Of a stretch of DNA of 64,000 bases, positions 38,152 to 49,444 are shown in pieces; position 1 is the first letter of the stretch, and each line of letters opens with the position of its first letter. The notes beneath the pieces are model-generated. The model was not told the origin of the DNA. It saw only the letters and a list, made by a program, of their open reading frames with translations, and searched no databases. Position numbers and translations under genes: made by a program. Origin of the DNA: Deltaproteobacteria bacterium (lineage in GTDB: Bacteria; Myxococcota; Myxococcia; SLRQ01); assembly GCA_029210625.1 (NCBI GenBank), contig JARGFU010000005.1, forward strand, positions 124,001 through 188,000. Reading direction: 5' to 3'.

Positions 38152-39792
38152 TCAGTCGCGGAGGCGGTGGAGATCGGAGAGGGTCCACTCGGTGGTGAAG
38201 AAGGTCTCCGCCTCCGGCGGGATCGGCTTCTTGCTGCGGAGGATGGCCTTCACCCAGGCCTCGGTGCGCTCCTCGCGGGGGGCGCCGGCCGAGAGCTGCA
38301 GCGGCGCCTCGATGATCTTCTCGTTGTGAGCCTGGCAGAGGCCGAGCACCCGCTCGGAGATCTGCCGGCTCATCTGGTCGAGGATGGTCTGCTCCAGCTC
38401 CTCGTCGGTCTTGGGGAAGACGAGGGGGTCGGCCTCGATCTGGGCCCGGGGCAGCGCCCGGTGGGTGCTGTCCTCGGTGGAGGCCTCGGCGCGCAGGATG
38501 GTGCTCGGGATGGCGAGCTCGCCGGTCTCCAGGTCCTTGGCCGCGATGCGCACCTCGAGCTCGGCGCGACGGGTGACGTCGGCGATCTCCAGCTCGACCT
38601 CCTTCTCGATCGCCTGGTCGATCATCTTCGGGGTGTCTGCCAGGCGGCGCCGCGCCAGGCCGAGCTCCTTGGCGGCCGCCTCGGCTGCCTGCCGGGCACC
38701 GGAGGCGGTCTGCCGGGCGTCGGAGAGGGCCTGCCGCAGCTGCTCGGTGTCGGACTCGGGCGGGGCCTCGGCGAAGCCGATCTCCCGCTCGCTCACCTTC
38801 CCCAGCGCCGCCTTGTACTCGGCGACCGCCGCCTCGAGCTTGGCCTGACCCAGCGTCACCGCCTCGGCCGCCTCGGCCTTGGCCGGGTTCGGGACCCGGC
38901 GGCTGCCGGCGACGTAGCGCTTCTGCTCCGTGCGGGTCTTGCGCTGGGAGAGCACCGCGTAGTTCTCCACGGCGAGGCGCAGGCTCGCCCCGGGGCCCTC
39001 GAGGGCGACCCGCACCAGCTCGAGCCCCTCACAGGTGGCGTTGTCCTCCAGCGCGCCGAGGGTGCGCACCAGCTCCACGGCCACCCGGCGCCGGGCGGCG
39101 CCGCCTGCGCTGACCTGGAGCTCGGTGGCGTAGCCGTTGGCCTCGCGCGCGGCGAGGCGGGCATCGAAGATGCGGGCGACGACGTCGTTCTCCCCCGGCG
39201 CGACCTCCTCCAGCCGGAGGAGCGAGACGAGGGCGTTCCCCGGGCGCCCCTCGCGCAGGTGGCGCTGGGCCTCCCGGGAGAGCTCGTCGCTGTAGGCGTG
39301 CCGGGCCGCGGAGAGCACGCTGACGGCCTCGGGGTCGTCGGGCGTGAGATCGGCCGCGCGGTCGGCGGCGTGGAAGGCCCGATCCAGCTCGCCGGCCCCG
39401 GTGGCCACGATCACCTGATCGAGGTGGGCGCGGGCCAGCCGGGGGCGGAGCGGCGCGAGCGCCGGGGAGCCGGCGTCCAGGGCCTCGGCCTCGAGGAAGA
39501 GCCCGTCGGCCCGGGCCAGCTCTCCGAGGTTGAGCGCCGGCTCGACCTCCCGGGCCAGCTCGGCGGCCAGCTGGCGCTCGGCCTCGGCCAGCCGGCTCTG
39601 CGCCGCGGCGTCGCGGGGATCCTTCTCGAGGGCCGCCGCGTAGGCCGCGCTGGCCTGGCGCCAGAGACCCTTGGCCGCGAGATCGTCGCCCCGGCGCAGC
39701 TCCGCCGAGCCGAAGGGGCACGCCGTCAGAGAGAGCCCCAGGAGCAGGCAAGACAGGAGCGAGCTCCCCCGGTTCGTGATCGCAAGCCGCAT
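38152..39792 (-). CDS. Coiled-coil/TPR-like lipoprotein of unknown function
   Basis: The product (546 residues from the ATG at 39792) has a lipoprotein signal (SSLLSCLLLGLSLTAC, Cys about residue 25). It is followed by TPR-like helical repeats (about 30-220: LWRQASAAYAAALEKDPRDAAAQSRLAEAERQLAAEL). A mixed central region and a long Ala/Glu-rich coiled coil (about 300-400) come next, and the end is globular. An in-frame GTG at 39831 would overlap the end of the plsB-like gene, but the inner ATG gives a proper signal peptide, so I prefer it. It is probably anchored at the outer membrane. I do not recognise a named family. Gene order suggests co-transcription with the upstream acyltransferase. 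Confidence 0.75.
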   Translation of the reverse strand: MRLAITNRGSSLLSCLLLGLSLTACPFGSAELRRGDDLAAKGLWRQASAAYAAALEKDPRDAAAQSRLAEAERQLAAELAREVEPALNLGELARADGLFLEAEALDAGSPALAPLRPRLARAHLDQVIVATGAGELDRAFHAADRAADLTPDDPEAVSVLSAARHAYSDELSREAQRHLREGRPGNALVSLLRLEEVAPGENDVVARIFDARLAAREANGYATELQVSAGGAARRRVAVELVRTLGALEDNATCEGLELVRVALEGPGASLRLAVENYAVLSQRKTRTEQKRYVAGSRRVPNPAKAEAAEAVTLGQAKLEAAVAEYKAALGKVSEREIGFAEAPPESDTEQLRQALSDARQTASGARQAAEAAAKELGLARRRLADTPKMIDQAIEKEVELEIADVTRRAELEVRIAAKDLETGELAIPSTILRAEASTEDSTHRALPRAQIEADPLVFPKTDEELEQTILDQMSRQISERVLGLCQAHNEKIIEAPLQLSAGAPREERTEAWVKAILRSKKPIPPEAETFFTTEWTLSDLHRLRD

Positions 39793-39823
39793 CGCGCGGC
39801 GAGGGTACCCGATGACCGGATCC

Positions 39824-42478
39824 TCAGTCACCGGTGCGGGCTGCCGAAGAGGACTCTCCGGCGCCCGGCGCCTCCCGGGTGCCGACGTGCGGCGCCAGGG
39901 TCGCGATCAGCGCCGTCAGGGCCAGGGGGTCGCCCAGCTCGAGGAGCGCCTCGCGCCCGGGCCCCCGCACCAGCGCGCCGCGCTGCACGAGCATGTCGAT
40001 GGCGCCCTCGACCAGCGGGCGGTTGAGCGCCTCCGGGGCGTCGATCTCGCCGATCAGGGTGCGGGCCCGCCCCTCCTCGAGGATGGCCTGCCGCAGCTCG
40101 GCCCGGGGGAGGGGAGCCTCCGAGAGGAGGCGGGAGGCCGTGGTCAGCGTGATCCAGTAGCCCTCCACCAGCGCGAGGGTCATGGCGCGCAGGAGGAGGA
40201 GCACCGGCCAGCCCTCGGGCGTCGGCTCGAGGAAGACGGCGTCGGCGGTGGCGCCCACGGCGAGGCGGGCGCGGCCGTCCTGGACCAGCTCCTCGAAGGC
40301 GGCGTCCAGGGCGCCCTCGGCGCCGCTGGCGGGATCGAAAACGAACTCGGGGGCCAGGGTCTCGGCCAGCGCCAGGGCGGCGCCCCGCACCGGATCCTCG
40401 CCGCCCCCGGCGAGGCCTTCCCGCAGGCGGCGGGCGTCCACCAGCGCCGTGGCCGCCAGGGCCCGGCCGGCCAGGAAGGGGATCAGCGCGTTCTTGTAGT
40501 AGTCGAGGCCGAGGCGGCCCTCGGGGTGGAGCTCGACGATCGTCCGGTCGCCCAGCTGGTGGGTGCGCACCAGGCCCTCGTCCTGGAGGGTGGCGACGGT
40601 CTCGCGGACGGTCGGCTCCTCGAGGCGGCCCTCGTCGTCGTAGCGCACGGCGTCGCTCACCCGCGCGTCTCCCTCCTTCGCCACGAAGTCCACCAGGAGG
40701 GTCGCCCGCTCGACGATGGTCGAGAGGTCCAGCCCGCGCCGCCGCTCGCCGAGGAGCGCGGCCGCGATGGGGGCGGTGGGCGTGACGGTCGTGAGGGCGC
40801 CGATGCGGTGGTTCAGCGTGTTGGCGAGCTCCACGACCAGATCCCGGCGGGTGTCCTCGTCGACCGCCTCGCGGTCGATCCCCCGCTCGCGGAGGAAGGC
40901 GCCCAGCTCGATGGGCTCCCCGACCTGGATGTAGATCCGGCCCCAGCGCTTGCGCAGCACCTTGCGGGCGCCCAGCAGCCCGGAGACGTCCTCGCTCTGC
41001 TTCTCCTCCCCCCGCAGCTCCTTCCCGTAGGCCCGGGCCTCGATGACCCGGGTGTAGCCGATGGAGATCGGGATGAAGCTCAGGGTGGAGCGGCTGCCCT
41101 CGAGGAAGGCCTCGACCTCGTAGGTCGCCAGCCCCATGCGGGCGGGGAGGGGCTTTCCGCTCCGCGAGCGGGTGCCCTCGATGAAGAACTCCACCGGGTG
41201 GCCGTCGTGGAGCAGGCGGCGGATGTAGGCCCGGAAGGTCGCGGCGTAGACCGGGTTGCCCCGGAAGGTGCGGCGCAGGAAGAAGGCGCCGGCCCGCCGG
41301 AGGATGGGGCCGATGGGGAAGAAGGAGAGGTTCTTGCCCGCCGCGATGTGGGGCGCGGTGAGGCCCCGCATGTGCATCGCCCAGGACATGACGAGGTAGT
41401 CGATGTGCGAGCGGTGGCTGGGGCAGAGCACGATCGGCCCGCGCCGGCCGGCGTCGGTCATCCGCTGGAGGCCCTCCTCGTCCACCCAGATGCCGTCGTA
41501 GATCCGGTTGAAGACGATCCGGAAGAAGGAGGCCATGGCGGCCACCACGAAGGGCGTGTAGCGGGCCGCGATCTCCTTGAGGTAGCGGTCGGCCCGCCGC
41601 TCGATCTCCGAGAGGGGCTTGCCCTCCTCGCGGGCGGCCTCGGCGAGGGAGGCGCGGAGCTGGTGATCCCGGAGGATCTCCATCCGCAGCCGGCGAGGGG
41701 CCTTGCGGACCGGGCCGGTGACCGAGCGCTCGGCCCGGGCGAGGTGCTGCACCAGCGAGCCCCGCACCATCCGGGCGAGCTTGTCGGCGGGGACCTCGGT
41801 GGAGCGGGCGAGGAGGGCGGCGAGGTCGACCGCCTCACCCAGCTGGAGCCGGGCCCGCTTGCGGTAGCGCAGGAAGGTGAGGAAGGCGCGGATCGCGCCG
41901 GGCATCTCCCGGGGCCCGAAGAGGGCGTCGAGGATCGGCGTGCGGCCGAGCTGGGTGCCCGGATCGAAGCCGAGGAGGAGGGTCACCGGGACCAGGAAGA
42001 TGGGCCGCTCCTGCTCGGCCTGGAGCTCGAGGAGGGCGGAGACCTCCCGCACGTCGAGGGCCGGCTGCTTGAGGCGCAGGCCCGCGGAGCGCTTCCAGAG
42101 GAAGCAGAGCGCGCTCTCCCCCCGGCAGACCACGTCCAGGAGGGGGGAGGGGGTGGGCTGCCCCACCTTCGAGGCGGCGGGAGACTTGCCCAGGCTCCCG
42201 GCGAGCCGGCCCCGCCAGCCGTCGACGTGCATGGCCAGGGGGAGGCCGAAGCGCAGGGCCATCCAGTTGAGGAGGAGGCCGAAGATCCAGCCCCGGGTGC
42301 GGCCCACGTAGACGATGGTCCCCCGGCTGGCGAGCTCCCGCAGGTCCTTCACCGCCACCTCGGGGAAGCGGACGTTGGCGAAGAGCCAGGACCAGAGGCC
42401 CCGGAAGCCTCTCCAGAAGCGGCTGCGCATCGGCACGGCCCGGTGGGGGCGGGGGCTCTTGACGGGGAGGTTGCTCAC
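39824..42478 (-). CDS. plsB: PlsB-type glycerol-3-phosphate acyltransferase
   Basis: The 884-residue product carries the acyltransferase motifs of PlsB in order: block I with H-x4-D in CPSHRSHIDYLVMSW (about residue 350), block II GAFFLRRTFRGN, block III FFIEGTRSRSGKPLPAR and block IV ISIGYTRVIE. The N-terminal 300 residues and the C-terminal half match the overall size of E. coli PlsB (about 807), with some additions. It transfers an acyl chain to the sn-1 position of glycerol-3-phosphate, the first step of phospholipid synthesis, at the inner membrane. The start is a GTG at 42478. It is divergent from aspS, with a good promoter candidate at 42582-42610 and a leader of about 100 bases containing a threefold repeat. 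Confidence 0.93.
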   Translation of the reverse strand: MSNLPVKSPRPHRAVPMRSRFWRGFRGLWSWLFANVRFPEVAVKDLRELASRGTIVYVGRTRGWIFGLLLNWMALRFGLPLAMHVDGWRGRLAGSLGKSPAASKVGQPTPSPLLDVVCRGESALCFLWKRSAGLRLKQPALDVREVSALLELQAEQERPIFLVPVTLLLGFDPGTQLGRTPILDALFGPREMPGAIRAFLTFLRYRKRARLQLGEAVDLAALLARSTEVPADKLARMVRGSLVQHLARAERSVTGPVRKAPRRLRMEILRDHQLRASLAEAAREEGKPLSEIERRADRYLKEIAARYTPFVVAAMASFFRIVFNRIYDGIWVDEEGLQRMTDAGRRGPIVLCPSHRSHIDYLVMSWAMHMRGLTAPHIAAGKNLSFFPIGPILRRAGAFFLRRTFRGNPVYAATFRAYIRRLLHDGHPVEFFIEGTRSRSGKPLPARMGLATYEVEAFLEGSRSTLSFIPISIGYTRVIEARAYGKELRGEEKQSEDVSGLLGARKVLRKRWGRIYIQVGEPIELGAFLRERGIDREAVDEDTRRDLVVELANTLNHRIGALTTVTPTAPIAAALLGERRRGLDLSTIVERATLLVDFVAKEGDARVSDAVRYDDEGRLEEPTVRETVATLQDEGLVRTHQLGDRTIVELHPEGRLGLDYYKNALIPFLAGRALAATALVDARRLREGLAGGGEDPVRGAALALAETLAPEFVFDPASGAEGALDAAFEELVQDGRARLAVGATADAVFLEPTPEGWPVLLLLRAMTLALVEGYWITLTTASRLLSEAPLPRAELRQAILEEGRARTLIGEIDAPEALNRPLVEGAIDMLVQRGALVRGPGREALLELGDPLALTALIATLAPHVGTREAPGAGESSSAARTGD

Positions 42479-42661: not shown

Positions 42662-42747
42662 CGGAGACCTCGATGGCAATCGTGCGGCTCGACATCGACC
42701 GGCCCGCTCCTTCGAGCGAGCAGGTCCTATCCGGCCAGGAGAACGAC

Positions 42748-44541
<1,794 letters not shown>

Positions 44542-44572: not shown

Positions 44573-46174
44573 GTGAGCAGGGAGTCCCTGGACAAGCGCC
44601 TCGAGGCCATCGTCGGTCCTCGTTGGGTGAGCGCCCGGCCGGAGCACCTGCGCGCCTACGGCCGCGACGCCTGGCCCCGCACCTACCTGCTCGCCCGGGA
44701 GGGCGTGGCCTTGAAGACCCCCGAGCTGGTGGTCTGGCCGGGCCGGCTGGAGGAGCTGGTGCGGCTGGTGAAGCTCTGCGCCGAGGTGGGGGTGCCGATG
44801 ATCCCCTACGGCGCCGGCAGCGGGGTCTGCGGCGGCGTCCACGCCCTCCACGGCGGCGTCACGGTCTCCCTGGAGCGCTTCGACACGATCGGCCCGATCG
44901 AGCCCCTGGATCGCCTGGTCCGGGTGGGGGCCGGGGTCATCGGGCAGCACCTCGAGGACGCCCTCGGGCGGCAGGGCTACACCGCCGGGCACTTCCCCTC
45001 CTCGATCCAGTGCTCGAGCGTGGGCGGCTGGGTCGCCGGCCGGGGCGCCGGCCAGTGCTCCTCCCGCTACGGCAAGATCGAGGACATCGTCGCCGGGATG
45101 ACCCTGGTGGACGGCCGGGGAGAGGTCCACCACTTCGCGCCGCGCCCCCGGCTGGGGCTGGGCCCCGATCCCCTCCACCTGATCGTGGGCAGCGAGGGCG
45201 TGCTGGGCTTCATCCCGGAGCTCACCCTGCGGGTGCGCCGGAGGGCGCGCCACCGCCGGATGCGCGGGCTCCTCATGCCCACGGTGGGCGCCGGGTTGCG
45301 GGCCATCCAGCGGATCTTCGCCGCCGGGCATCGCCCCTTCGTCGCGCGCCTCTACGATCCCCTCGACACCACGGTGAACAAGGGCAAGGGGACCGGCACC
45401 GCTGAGCGGCGCCTGCCCGCCTTCCTGGGCCGCGGCCTCTCCTGGCTCAAGGGACAGGAGCCCATCGAGGCCCTGCTGCGCCAGGCCATGAAGGGCGGCC
45501 TCCACCGGCCGGCGCTCCTGAACCGGGCGGTGGACGCCCTCGGCAAGCAGGCGCTCCTGATCCTCGGCAGCGAGGGCGCCGACCCCTCGCTGGTCGAGCA
45601 CGAGCTGGCCGAGTGCCTGGTGCTCGCCGCCGAGGCGGGGGGCGACGACCTGGGCCCCGCGCCGGGGGAGCACTGGCTCGAGCACCGCCACGCCGTGAGC
45701 TACAAGCTCTCTCCGATGCTCTCCCTGGGGGCCTTCGTGGACACCATGGAGGTGGCGACCACCTGGGAGCGGCTCCTCCCCCTCTACGAGCGGGTGCGGC
45801 GGGCGGTCGCCGACGAGGCCTTCGTCATGGCCCACTTCAGCCACGCCTACGAGGACGGCGCGTCGATCTACTTCACCTTCGCCGGCTGGGCGCCGGAGCT
45901 GGCCTCCCGCGAGGCGGCCTACGATCGGACCTGGCAGAAGGCCCTCTCCGCGGTGCGCGAGGGTGGGGGGACGCTCTCCCACCACCACGGGGTCGGGATG
46001 AGCAAGCAGGCCTTCCTGCGCGACGAGCTGGGCGAGGGCGGGATGAAGCTCCTGCGGGGGCTGAAGGACGCCCTCGATCCCGCCGGGCTGGCGAACCCCG
46101 GCAAGCTGGGCCTCGGCGAGGGACCGAGCCTGCCCGGCGGCGCCGCGGCCCTGCGGGCGGAGGTGCGCTCATGA
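44573..46174 (+). CDS. FAD-dependent oxidase family protein, alkylglycerone-phosphate synthase-like
   Basis: The 533-residue product has an FAD-binding type-4 domain (about 50-225) with the PP-loop IPYGAGSGVCGGV and an AGPS-like stretch (SSVGGWVAGRGAGQ, YGKIEDIV). Its C-terminal cap has SIYFTFAGW and SHHHGVGMSK, the His-His-His motif typical of alkyl-DHAP synthase. That enzyme swaps the acyl chain of acyl-DHAP for a fatty alcohol, the committed step of ether-lipid synthesis. The nearest alternatives are D-lactate or glycolate dehydrogenase subunits, which share the FAD fold and often travel with GlcE/GlcF-like genes, as here. It starts at a GTG and ends overlapping the next gene (ATGA). I lean to AGPS because of the HHH motif. 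Confidence 0.85.
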   Translation: MSRESLDKRLEAIVGPRWVSARPEHLRAYGRDAWPRTYLLAREGVALKTPELVVWPGRLEELVRLVKLCAEVGVPMIPYGAGSGVCGGVHALHGGVTVSLERFDTIGPIEPLDRLVRVGAGVIGQHLEDALGRQGYTAGHFPSSIQCSSVGGWVAGRGAGQCSSRYGKIEDIVAGMTLVDGRGEVHHFAPRPRLGLGPDPLHLIVGSEGVLGFIPELTLRVRRRARHRRMRGLLMPTVGAGLRAIQRIFAAGHRPFVARLYDPLDTTVNKGKGTGTAERRLPAFLGRGLSWLKGQEPIEALLRQAMKGGLHRPALLNRAVDALGKQALLILGSEGADPSLVEHELAECLVLAAEAGGDDLGPAPGEHWLEHRHAVSYKLSPMLSLGAFVDTMEVATTWERLLPLYERVRRAVADEAFVMAHFSHAYEDGASIYFTFAGWAPELASREAAYDRTWQKALSAVREGGGTLSHHHGVGMSKQAFLRDELGEGGMKLLRGLKDALDPAGLANPGKLGLGEGPSLPGGAAALRAEVRS

Positions 46175-47277
46175 ACCTGCGCCTGCGACTGGAGGCCGTC
46201 TGCGGCTCCCGCCGGGTGCGGGGCGAGCAGCCCCTCATCGTGCGGCCGGCGGACGAGGCGGCCCTGCGGGGCGCGCTGGCGGCCGCCGCCGAGGCCGGGG
46301 TCCCGACCAAGCTGGAGGGCCTGCGGGCGCACAGCGAGACCGAGGCCGCGGTCACCTTCGAGCTCTCCGGCTTCGACGAGCTCGAGCTGGACCGCGAGAA
46401 TCACCTGGCGCGCGTGGGCGCCGGGCTGCCGGTGAGCGTGATCGAGCAGCGCCTGGAGGCCGAGGGCTTCTCCCTTCGCTGGGGACACCTGCCGCCGATC
46501 CCGGTGGGCGTCTGGCTGGCGGCCCACGCCGGCGCGATCCACTCCCCCCGGGGGCTGCCCGGGCACGGCCCGGTGGCCGGGGTGGAGGCGGTCCTCTGGG
46601 ACGGGACGCCGCTGCGTAGCTGCCTGGCGCCGCGCAGCGCCACCGGGCCCGAGCTCTCCGCCTTCTTCCTCGGCGCGCGGGCGCGCTTCGGGCTGCTGAC
46701 CCGGCTCCACCTGCGGGTCCACCCCGCGCCGGCCGAGCGGGAGCGGCTGGCCTGGACCTTCCCGGGGCACGCCGCGGCCCTGCGGGCCTGCGTGGACCTG
46801 CTCGAGGCCGACCTCTGGCCCGAGGCGATGACGCTCCACGACGGCGCCGGGGGCGTGCAGCTCTGCTGGGAGCTCGCCGAGAGCGCCGTGCAGGTGCGGG
46901 TGAGGCGCAGCGCGGCCGAGATCGTGGCGCGGGGCGCGGGCGGCGCGCCCGCCCCGGCCGGCTGCGAGCGGCTGGCGGGCTCGAGCGAGCTGCGCGCCGC
47001 CACCGCGGATCGCGCCGAGACCGCCGCCTCCCGGGCCTGGCTGCTCTTCTCCCAGGTCGAGCCGCTGGTCGAGCGCCTCCGGGCCGAGCACCCCGCGGCG
47101 CGCCTCCACCTCGAGGCGGTCGCGCCGGAGGGGGCGGCGGCCTGGATCGTGGGCCTGCCGCCGGCGGCGCTCGACGCGCTCCTCGCCGAGGTCGGCGCGC
47201 TGCGGGACACGCCTCCGGCCGAGCTCGCGCTGCTCGACGCCGTCGCGGCGAAGGTCTTCCCGGAGGTGCGCGCGTGA
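46171..47277 (+). CDS. FAD-binding oxidoreductase subunit, GlcE-like
   Basis: The 368-residue product resembles the glycolate oxidase GlcE subunit: an FAD-binding type-4 domain only, without the large catalytic cap. The nucleotide-binding region reads VPTKLEGLRAHSE and is degenerate compared with the usual PP-loop. Later landmarks are LARVGAGLPVSVIEQRLEAEG and GVWLAAHAGAIHSPRG, where the usual run of Gly in this region is partly replaced. It overlaps its neighbours on both sides by four bases (ATGA, GTGA), so the three proteins are made together and are probably a complex. Whether it binds FAD or serves only as a structural subunit is uncertain. Confidence 0.8.
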   Translation: MNLRLRLEAVCGSRRVRGEQPLIVRPADEAALRGALAAAAEAGVPTKLEGLRAHSETEAAVTFELSGFDELELDRENHLARVGAGLPVSVIEQRLEAEGFSLRWGHLPPIPVGVWLAAHAGAIHSPRGLPGHGPVAGVEAVLWDGTPLRSCLAPRSATGPELSAFFLGARARFGLLTRLHLRVHPAPAERERLAWTFPGHAAALRACVDLLEADLWPEAMTLHDGAGGVQLCWELAESAVQVRVRRSAAEIVARGAGGAPAPAGCERLAGSSELRAATADRAETAASRAWLLFSQVEPLVERLRAEHPAARLHLEAVAPEGAAAWIVGLPPAALDALLAEVGALRDTPPAELALLDAVAAKVFPEVRA

Positions 47278-48515
47278 GGTCCGAGCTCCCCGGCCTCGAT
47301 CTGGCCGCCCACGAGAAGGAGCTGCTGCTCTGCGAGCTCTGCCCCCGGATGTGCCGCCACGCCTGTCCGGTGGGGGTGGTGGCCCGGGACGAGGCGCTCA
47401 CCCCGCAGGAGAAGATGGCCGAGGCCCGGCGCCAGCTGCGCGGCGAGAGCGAGGTCGGCGTGCACACCGCCTGGGACTGCGCGGGCTGCGGCCTCTGCAC
47501 CGCCACCTGCGAGCACGACAACCCCGTCGGGGAGCTCCTCCTCGCCGCGCGCGCCCGGCGCTTCGTCGCCGGTGACGCCCCCGAGGCCGCCCGGGCGCTG
47601 GCGCGCCGCTGCCGGGAGGAGGGCACCCCGCGCGGCCCGGTGGATCGCCGGCGCCTGGAGTCGATCCAGGAGGCCCGGCGGATCCGCCGCACGGTGAGGG
47701 AGTTCGAGGGGCCGCGGGTGCCCGGCCGGGGCCTGCGGGTGCTCTTCCCGGGCTGCGAGCTGGTGGAGGACGCGCCGGAGCGGGTGGGGCGGCTCCTGGA
47801 CATCGCCGACAGCCTCGGCGAGGGCGACCTGGTGGTCTGGGACGGGGCGGCCCGCTGCTGCGGCTACCCGCTCCTGGCGGCCGGGGACGCCGCGGGCTAC
47901 GCGGCCCACGCGAGCCGGCTCGCGAGCGCCCTGGCGGGGGCCAGCCTGATCACCACGCCCTGCGCCCACTGCGCCACGACCCTGGAGCTGGCGAGCGAGC
48001 GCTTCGGGATCGGCTTCCCGCCGGTCGAGCACCTCTCCCAGACCCTCGCCAAGGCGCTGCGCCGCAAGGGCGTCACCCGGGTCGTCGAGGACCTGCTCCC
48101 CCGGGGCTGGGTCCTCCACGAGCCCTGCCACCTGGTGCACGGCCTGGAGGAGAGCGAGGCCCCGCGGCAGCTCCTCGAGGCGATCACCGGCGGGCGGCCC
48201 GAGGCCGCCGAGGGGACGGGCGAGTCGATCTGGCAGGGCGAGCGCAGCTGGTGCTGCGGGGGCGGCGGGGCGCTGCCCCACACCCGCCCCGAGCTCGCCC
48301 GGGAGATGGCCCGGGTGCGGGCGGCGGATCTCCTGGGGGAGAGCGCCGGGCCGCCGGCCCTCGAGGGCCTGCCGGGGAGCGCGCGGCAGCTGGTCACGGC
48401 CAGCCCCTGCTGCGAGCGGCACTTCTGGGAGGCGGGCGTCGAGAGCGAGGATCTCTTCGAGCTCCTCGGGCGCTTCCTCGAGGGCGGACGCAGCGAGAGC
48501 AGGGAGGAAGGATGA
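47274..48515 (+). CDS. Fe-S and CCG-domain oxidoreductase subunit, GlcF-like
   Basis: The 413-residue product has two 4Fe-4S ferredoxin-type clusters near the N-terminus: CELCPRMCRHACP (about 22-34) and CAGCGLCTATCEHDNP (about 67-82). Two cysteine-rich CCG domains follow. The first has FPGCELVED, RCCGYPL and TPCAHC; the second has HEPCHLVHG, WCCGGGGALPH and SPCCERHF. This is the layout of glycolate/lactate oxidase GlcF and of heterodisulfide-reductase-like electron carriers. It should pass electrons from the flavin subunits to quinone or another carrier at the membrane. It starts at a GTG overlapping the previous stop and its own stop overlaps the lipid kinase gene. Confidence 0.9.
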   Translation: MRSELPGLDLAAHEKELLLCELCPRMCRHACPVGVVARDEALTPQEKMAEARRQLRGESEVGVHTAWDCAGCGLCTATCEHDNPVGELLLAARARRFVAGDAPEAARALARRCREEGTPRGPVDRRRLESIQEARRIRRTVREFEGPRVPGRGLRVLFPGCELVEDAPERVGRLLDIADSLGEGDLVVWDGAARCCGYPLLAAGDAAGYAAHASRLASALAGASLITTPCAHCATTLELASERFGIGFPPVEHLSQTLAKALRRKGVTRVVEDLLPRGWVLHEPCHLVHGLEESEAPRQLLEAITGGRPEAAEGTGESIWQGERSWCCGGGGALPHTRPELAREMARVRAADLLGESAGPPALEGLPGSARQLVTASPCCERHFWEAGVESEDLFELLGRFLEGGRSESREEG

Positions 48516-49444
48516 GTCAGGGCGGCTTCAAGACCTACGTGGTGCTCAACCCGCGCTCCGCCGGGGGCGCCACCGGGAAGAGCGTGCAGAAGATCCTCGC
48601 CGCGGTGGGCGCGCGGGTGGGGGAGCTCGAGCACGGGCTCACCGAGGGGCCGGAGCACGCGACCGTGCTGGCGCGGGAGGCCCTCGAGCGCGGCGCCGAG
48701 ATGGTGGTCGCCGTCGGAGGCGACGGCACCTTCAACGAGGTCACCAACGCCTTCCTCCAGGGAGGCGAGGCCCGCTTCCCCGAGGCCGTGCTCGGGCTGC
48801 TCCCCCAGGGGACCGGCGGCGACTTCCGCAAGACGGTCGGCGTCGAGCGCAAGCTCGAGAGCGCCTGCGAGAAGCTCGCCGGGCGGGCCACGCGAAGGAT
48901 CGACGCCGGCTGGCTCGACTTCGTCGATCACCAGGGCAGCCCCGCCGGCCGGGCCTTCATCAACATCTCCTCCTTCGGCGTCTCCGGCGCGGTGGTGAAG
49001 ACGGTGAACGAGAGCTCCAAGGCCCTCGGGGGCAAGCTCTCGTTCATGATCGGCTCGGCCCGGGCGCTCTGGCACTACCGGGACCAGCGGGTGCGCCTGA
49101 TCGTCGACGGCGAGGCCGAGGAGCCGATCGCGATGACCACGGTGGCCGTCTGCAACGGGCGCTTCTTCGGCGGCGGGATGATGGTCGCCCCGCGCGCCGA
49201 GCTGGACGACGGCCTCTTCGACGTGACCATCTGGCGGGACTTCGCCCTGAAGGACTTCGCCTTCAAGAAGGCGATGCTCTACAAGGGCACCCACCTCTCC
49301 GACCCGCGCACCCGCGCGCTGCGCTGCAAGGAGCTGCGGGCCGAGTCCGACGAGAAGGTGCTGATCGACGTGGACGGCGAGCAGCCCGGAGTGCTGCCGG
49401 CGACCTTCCGGATCCTGCCCGGGGCGATCAACCTGAAGATCTGA
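48512..49444 (+). CDS. Diacylglycerol kinase/YegS-like lipid kinase
   Basis: The 310-residue product belongs to the DAGK catalytic-domain family. Visible landmarks are VVLNPRSAGG at the start, the nucleotide-binding GGDGTFNEV near residue 70, LPQGTGGDFRKT (usually GTGNDFAR) near 98, and the C-terminal CNGRFFGGGMMVAPRAELDDGLFDV. Such enzymes phosphorylate diacylglycerol, sphingosine-like or other lipid alcohols. The Asn-to-Gly change in the GTGND motif may affect substrate or metal use. Its ATG overlaps the Fe-S gene's stop, so it is the fourth member of a tightly coupled operon, which fits a lipid-related role for the whole unit. Confidence 0.9.
   Translation: MSQGGFKTYVVLNPRSAGGATGKSVQKILAAVGARVGELEHGLTEGPEHATVLAREALERGAEMVVAVGGDGTFNEVTNAFLQGGEARFPEAVLGLLPQGTGGDFRKTVGVERKLESACEKLAGRATRRIDAGWLDFVDHQGSPAGRAFINISSFGVSGAVVKTVNESSKALGGKLSFMIGSARALWHYRDQRVRLIVDGEAEEPIAMTTVAVCNGRFFGGGMMVAPRAELDDGLFDVTIWRDFALKDFAFKKAMLYKGTHLSDPRTRALRCKELRAESDEKVLIDVDGEQPGVLPATFRILPGAINLKI

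Follow-up and report, generated by a model that had tools for sequence, protein, structure and literature searches.

A unit of four overlapping genes, here called D, E, F and K, was analyzed in a 64,000-nucleotide stretch of the genome of a Deltaproteobacteria bacterium (contig JARGFU010000005.1); the whole stretch is referred to below as the window. The D, E and F products may form a putative quinone-linked flavoprotein dehydrogenase, whose substrate would be a phosphorylated glycerol or glycerolipid, with K and, in fuller versions of the operon, GlpA, GlpB and a small iron-sulfur (Fe-S) protein acting in the same glycerolipid route. This reading, which we consider about evenly poised between right and wrong, is based on the features of the following four genes, on their conservation and on their genomic partners.

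44573-46174, plus strand: D, flavin adenine dinucleotide (FAD) enzyme assigned to the branch of alkylglycerone-phosphate synthase (AGPS); 533 amino acids, GTG start, SHHHGVG at residues 469-475
46171-47277, plus strand: E, degenerate paralogue of D; 368 amino acids, FAD loop lost, without the HHH-bearing C-terminal part
47274-48515, plus strand: F, Fe-S protein of the GlpC/GlcF type; 413 amino acids, two [4Fe-4S] motifs and two CCG domains
48512-49444, plus strand: K, predicted lipid kinase of the YegS/Rv2252/BmrU family; 310 amino acids, GGDGT intact

The original prediction had described four overlapping genes at 44573-49444, the first of them carrying the HHH motif typical of AGPS, and both points were confirmed by the open reading frames (ORFs) of the window. 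Consecutive genes overlap by 4 bp at each junction, through ATGA (D/E), GTGA (E/F) and ATGA (F/K), and the coding signal given by GC content at third codon positions is very strong (0.97-0.98 for D and F). The host assembly is 6.1 Mb in size and 98% complete, and the organism is, judging from its relatives, an uncultured member of Myxococcota.

D contains the Pfam domains FAD_binding_4 (PF01565) and FAD-oxidase_C (PF02913). The solved structures nearest to it by sequence are those of AGPS (2uuu, 3.5e-53; 4bby, 2.4e-52), followed by glycolate oxidase (9e-36). Similarly, Foldseek comparison of an AlphaFold2 (AF2) model (pLDDT 90) returned AGPS 4bby as the top match (E=3.0e-36, TM 0.78), with LDHD 8jde (5e-32) behind. 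The phylogeny of the 533-residue protein, compared with AGPS, GlcD and D-lactate dehydrogenases, placed it on the AGPS branch, in support of the original prediction: in maximum-likelihood trees, which leave out part of the AGPS-like paralogues (four of the seven on the minus strand) and do not place a third AGPS-like group, D and AGPS are split from GlcD, LDHD and D2HGDH-like proteins at 100/100 support. Since a 100/99 clade, composed of canonical AGPS (mammal, Dictyostelium, Myxococcaceae) and actinobacterial homologues, leaves D out, D represents a separate AGPS-branch family, proper to Myxococcota and outside canonical AGPS.

A site table, compiled for 78 D orthologues, revealed that the histidine triad (H470-472), Y433 and R259, the last two equivalent to Tyr578 and Arg419 of AGPS, are present in all of them, and that the FAD loop, Trp368, Arg372, His421 and His424 are essentially invariant. 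The column of the canonical Arg515 (YIRD motif), a residue which we take to be important for AGPS catalysis, is occupied by Q, M or L in 78/78 proteins and by R in 0/78; a Lys or Arg, which might replace it (Lys/Arg378), is found one residue before this column in 70. The 'EHG' motif of GlcD reads 'HHH' in 78/78, and against TIGR00387, the GlcD equivalog model, D scores 138 bits for a cut-off of 568. Two assignments of D were rejected: canonical AGPS by the tree, Arg515 and the genome context, and GlcDEF by the tree, the TIGR00387 cut-off and the motif.

Other proteins related to D were also noticed. A third AGPS-like group, which shares about 30-34% identity with canonical AGPS and is separate from D, is present in large Myxococcaceae-type genomes (G070-G075, G010, G012:C13, G022:C168 and others). 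At locus L030 (G012:C37, 6611-13996), a D protein without HHH (GATLSYSTGVG), possibly dead, is accompanied by E and K, with F missing. The host genome itself contains a separate GlcD-type gene (L002, G000:C8, 37-2796), separated by 3 bp from the GMC oxidoreductase gene that precedes it, in an unusual pairing, and a gene on the minus strand (L004, G000:C41, 721-2184) for a degenerate FAD_binding_4-like protein of 487 amino acids, possibly another cofactor-less paralogue.

In a scan of GTDB genomes, 372 loci were found to encode a protein related to D; of the top 80, almost all carry the label Myxococcota, Myxococcales or Deltaproteobacteria. Iterated profiles were used to count neighboring genes. 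Of the 75 related loci with enough sequence, 70 have E after D; of the 57 whose downstream part exceeds 5 kb, F is found after D in 36 and K in 30. The D-E-F-K linkage is beyond chance, and the genes are conserved as a unit of four. On the upstream side, glpA precedes D in 12/84 loci, and six loci (L024, L029, L037, L038, L042, L114) display the complete order glpA-glpB-FeS-D-E-F-K. L024 comes from a sister genus, in the same family as the window genome, and its upstream genes match the NCBIfam models of GlpA (2.9e-110) and GlpB (1.1e-61). Neither GlpA nor GlpB is encoded in the window operon; elsewhere in the host genome no close GlpB was found, and one GlpD/GlpA homologue was. Loci without GlpAB, such as that of the window, still have F adjoining D-E.

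The second gene had been called GlcE-like, with a degenerate nucleotide loop. The loop is indeed degenerate: the G-x-G-[ST] signature is missing from the window E, and is retained in 8 of 50 E orthologues. The relation to GlcE gave way to one with D, as hhalign comparison of E with the D profile returned E=5.4e-52 across D residues 4-439, against 2e-12 with E. coli GlcE, and a GlcE search of E with NCBIfam produced no match. E was therefore rejected as a GlcE, being far nearer to D, and is best described as a degenerate copy of the latter. It contains FAD_binding_4 as its only Pfam domain, stops short of the HHH segment, and yields an AF2 model with a pLDDT of 87. Full-length D-E fusions are present in four loci (L029, L054, L097, L111), and in about 16 Polyangiaceae fusions D is joined to a truncated E; a re-check indicated that these are real, with only E positions ~73-220 present. 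Among cultured myxobacteria, a natural D-E fusion is carried by Polyangium fumosum, and the cluster is also present in Archangium. In two loci (L099, 10457-11908; L088, 10579-12030) a second D-like protein is found in the position of E. A tandem duplication of D would fit as the origin of E, because the L099 copy, in E position, still has the HHH motif (SHHHGIG). Upstream of the D-E fusion in some Polyangiaceae, a gene for a phosphatidylserine decarboxylase or a methyltransferase is located (L069, 1099-2040; L072, 3-1772).

F matches two Fer4 domains and CCG in Pfam, the latter above cut-off, in agreement with the Fe-S/CCG protein originally predicted; its likeness to GlcF was revised, since in hhalign comparisons it is nearer to GlpC (1.5e-24) than to GlcF (2.1e-17). 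The cluster cysteines (C20, C23, C27, C31; C69, C72, C75, C79) are all invariant in 45 orthologues. K, anticipated as a diacylglycerol-kinase-like enzyme, contains DAGK_cat (PF00781) and YegS_C (PF19279), scores 142.6 bits against TIGR00147, above the cut-off of 118.65, and shares GGDGT with 35/35 orthologues, which identifies it as an intact YegS/DGK enzyme. In the alignment of K orthologues, another loop reads GTGGD in 32/35 and GTGSD in two. The usual form of this loop in lipid kinases is GTGND, and the change of Asn to Gly might mark a different lipid substrate.

The possible involvement of the operon in ether-lipid synthesis was evaluated by looking for the known pathway. In Myxococcus, the AGPS gene MXAN_1676, whose product is 42% identical to human AGPS, is found together with a FAR-acyltransferase gene (PMC9131029). 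Within a set of 156 Myxococcota genomes, where D was defined by at least 35% identity to P0001 and canonical AGPS by at least 48% identity to the Myxococcaceae protein, 54 genomes contain D, 19 canonical AGPS and 18 FAR-acyltransferase; none of the 54 genomes with D contains either of the other two. For D and canonical AGPS, a zero overlap has a chance probability of 1.6e-4 when genomes are counted and of 0.015 when genera are (five genera only), both values being uncorrected for descent, and their mutual exclusion is partly phylogenetic. Neither canonical AGPS nor FAR-acyltransferase was found in the host genome. Because of these two results, D is placed outside the known FAR-dependent route; to take the place of AGPS it would need a different source of alcohol. 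The making of ether lipids, one of the functions suggested by the original prediction, is not supported, Arg515 also being missing. These numbers bear on surveys of ether lipids and plasmalogens, too. An AGPS match at E<=1e-40 was found in 58 of the 156 genomes, canonical AGPS in only 19; a published AGPS-based survey, whose thresholds were 30% identity and an E-value under 1e-30, reported 120 of 347 Myxococcota metagenome-assembled genomes (PMC11868695), and many D proteins would be counted in this way.

Genes related to D are found near lipid kinases, glycerol-3-phosphate (G3P) dehydrogenases or both also outside Myxococcota. In Pseudomonas aeruginosa, PA3026 (FAD oxidoreductase), PA3025 (GlpD) and PA3024 (FGGY kinase) form an operon, accompanied by PA3023 (lipid kinase), and the regulator GliR activates PA3026-PA3024 together with the phospholipase PlcA (PMC8151288). 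Annotated plasmids were used for the remaining groups, to the exclusion of the unannotated L125, L129 and L132. In Streptomyces and Tsukamurella, the D homologue has a GlpD/TetR pair on one side and a YegS/Rv2252 kinase on the other; in Novosphingobium it is flanked by GlpD and a FGGY kinase. In Shinella, Paracoccus and Roseibium it precedes a FGGY kinase and an ABC importer under LacI control; genes for an ABC importer and a LacI regulator, together with one for a kinase, also lie beside it in Mesorhizobium. The alphaproteobacterial setting looks catabolic. Kinase, G3P dehydrogenase and AGPS-like protein are a recurring module, to which E and F are a Myxococcota addition. Since the triad occurs in Pseudomonas, Actinomycetota and Alphaproteobacteria, the link with a lipid kinase is not unique to myxobacteria, and the contrast originally drawn with GlcDEF, which works without such a kinase, undersells the clustering of G3P dehydrogenase, AGPS-like protein and lipid kinase already described in Pseudomonas and also seen in Actinomycetota. 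Rv2249c-Rv2252 is a further example of the actinobacterial block. Rv2252 is cited in PMC3229680 as a demonstrated diacylglycerol kinase (Owens 2006); the literature on Rv2251/Rv2252 yielded passing mentions, and no function for Rv2251.

Two further genes of the window, both outside the four described above, are relevant to their context.

42673-44541, plus strand: aspS, aspartyl-tRNA synthetase, an ORF named from its sequence; 31 bp upstream of D
39824-42478, minus strand: PlsB-like glycerol-3-phosphate acyltransferase (PF19277 GPAT_C, 2.4e-53; PF01553); neighbor outside the operon, divergent to aspS

In the related loci, aspS is near D in 20/84, and upstream of it in 17 of the 50 with more than 6.5 kb upstream. 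Because of the 31-bp spacing, and because aspS recurs ahead of D in sister loci, the transcription unit probably begins with aspS, so that the extent originally given to the operon, correct for D-E-F-K, would have to be enlarged. A scan of the aspS-D gap gave no promoter- or terminator-like site, a result which is uninformative at this GC content. In the window, glycerolipid genes are thus found on both sides of aspS, the PlsB-like one on the minus strand and D-E-F-K. Beside the former, a gene on the minus strand (38152-39831) encodes a 559-amino-acid protein without Pfam match.

The lipid-linked redox complex envisaged by the original prediction remains, for this conserved four-gene unit, the best reading, which can be worded as a dehydrogenase acting on a phosphorylated glycerol or glycerolipid because of the GlpC-type F, of a family pocket which binds derivatives of dihydroxyacetone phosphate (DHAP), and of the glycerolipid partners. 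The latter are the lipid kinase, the G3P dehydrogenase and, in Pseudomonas, the co-regulated phospholipase PlcA. In the proposed scheme, K would phosphorylate a glycerolipid (mono-/diacyl- or alkylglycerol) to a glycerol-3-phosphate lipid, whose G3P or DHAP end would be handled by GlpAB or by another G3P dehydrogenase. The phosphorylated glycerol or DHAP-type substrate would then be bound in the pocket which D shares with AGPS, passing its electrons to the FAD of D, and the Fe-S clusters of F would carry them to the membrane quinone; E would be a structural partner of D, catalytically dead. F most likely serves D-E, because it adjoins them even where GlpAB is missing, and we infer that electrons leave the flavin for quinone, since F is a GlpC-type Fe-S subunit, of which a redox-neutral AGPS has no need.

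Several observations weigh against this scheme. The reaction catalyzed by AGPS is redox-neutral, and D retains most of the residues which catalyze it; D could therefore still be an alkyl transferase, with F serving something else. The Polyangiaceae D-E fusions are mostly without F and K nearby, F being near 3 of 15 fused proteins, so F is not always needed at a D-E locus. Only 12 of the 84 loci have GlpA near D and only 20 have aspS, and deletion of PA3026-PA3024 in P. aeruginosa was without phenotype under the conditions tried (PMC8151288).

These points lead to the alternative that D is a divergent but true alkyl-DHAP synthase, E and F being accessory or regulatory and K salvaging alkylglycerol. 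The membership of D in the AGPS clade, its AGPS fold and the invariant equivalents of HHH, Tyr578 and Arg419 speak for it, together with the PlsB-like acyltransferase gene nearby and the DHAP which GlpA/GlpD would provide; the same pathway has been proposed for PA3026-PA3024 (PMC8151288), and D and canonical AGPS never occur together in the 156 genomes, as would functional substitutes. We consider it unlikely, as the Arg515 position is Q, M or L in 78/78 D proteins, no FAR-acyltransferase, and hence no known source of fatty alcohol, was found in the host or in any D genome, and the redox partners are left unexplained. Decidedly improbable is ether cleavage by the reverse of the AGPS reaction, in which K would phosphorylate a glycerol substituted at 1-O by an alkyl or other group, C2 would be oxidized by a GlpA/GlpD-type enzyme, D would split the C1-O ether bond via a FAD adduct, and E/F would re-oxidize the flavin or the dehydrogenase. 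No such activity is known and its substrates are guessed, a plain reversal requires no electron carrier, and the dehydrogenase is missing from some clusters; nevertheless the triad of kinase, G3P dehydrogenase and AGPS-like protein recurs in four groups (including that of PMC8151288), its alphaproteobacterial versions look catabolic (ABC import, LacI, FGGY kinase), and co-regulation with PlcA in P. aeruginosa suits lipid breakdown.

The subunit plan of D-E-F, which is that of GlcDEF, would also be compatible with a drifted 2-hydroxy-acid oxidase, active on glycolate, D-lactate or D-2-hydroxyglutarate, with the kinase as a bystander. Trp368-x3-Arg372 and K478 of D are as in GlcD, and E and F retain a distant similarity to GlcE and GlcF. 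This is very improbable, given the position of D outside GlcD/LDHD/D2HGDH at 100/100, the replacement of 'EHG' by 'HHH' in 78/78, the TIGR00387 score far below cut-off, the nature of E, a paralogue of D instead of a GlcE, and the separate GlcD-type gene of the host genome. Least probable of all is that the genes are neighbors by habit, in an aspS-linked housekeeping block without shared function: aspS is unrelated and yet conserved nearby, and gene content differs between loci, but 4-bp overlaps and D-E fusions argue otherwise, as does a kinase/dehydrogenase linkage which recurs in distant phyla with different neighbors.

D identifies a large Myxococcota family of AGPS look-alikes, coupled to electron-transfer genes and never found with real AGPS or the FAR pathway in the sampled genomes, and the clusters of Pseudomonas, Actinomycetota and Alphaproteobacteria can be gathered under one idea, in which an AGPS-like flavoenzyme would act on the same substrate as a kinase and a G3P-type dehydrogenase. 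An O2-independent oxidation or cleavage of glyceryl ethers, or of related phosphorylated glycerolipids, by a flavoenzyme of the AGPS type, connected to the quinone pool, would be a rather unlikely extension; AGMO has been described as the only known alkylglycerol ether-cleaving enzyme (PMC7911779).

Compared with known systems, D has in common with AGPS (4bby, 2uuu, MXAN_1676) the fold, the FAD domain, HHH and the equivalents of Tyr578 and Arg419, and with Dictyostelium AGPS also W..RY and AH.SH.Y. The two are only ~24-31% identical and form separate clades, the Arg515 (YIRD) of AGPS is absent in all D, and AGPS genes are associated with FAR-acyltransferase and NAD-epimerase, D with E/F/K/Glp. 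The PA3026-PA3023 cluster of P. aeruginosa resembles the D operon in that an AGPS-like FAD oxidoreductase is found beside a YegS lipid kinase and a homologue of GlpD, in a glycerolipid context; it differs in having a FGGY kinase and an AraC regulator, with no E, F or GlpB reported and without aspS. The actinobacterial block (Streptomyces fungicidicus L124, Tsukamurella L133) shares G3P dehydrogenase, AGPS-like protein and lipid kinase, but its annotated stretches contain no E or F, and the AGPS-like protein which it encodes is placed in the trees as sister of canonical AGPS, with Arg515 (YLRD) kept, unlike in D. With E. coli GlpABC the operon shares a GlpC-like F and, in sister operons, GlpA and GlpB, which are absent from the window, while D, E and K are without counterpart in E. 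coli glpABC. E. coli GlcDEF follows the same plan as D-E-F, that is two FAD_binding_4 proteins and a Fe-S/CCG protein encoded by adjacent genes; in the D operon the first is of the AGPS branch, the second is a D paralogue without FAD loop, the third is nearer to GlpC, and a lipid kinase is added.

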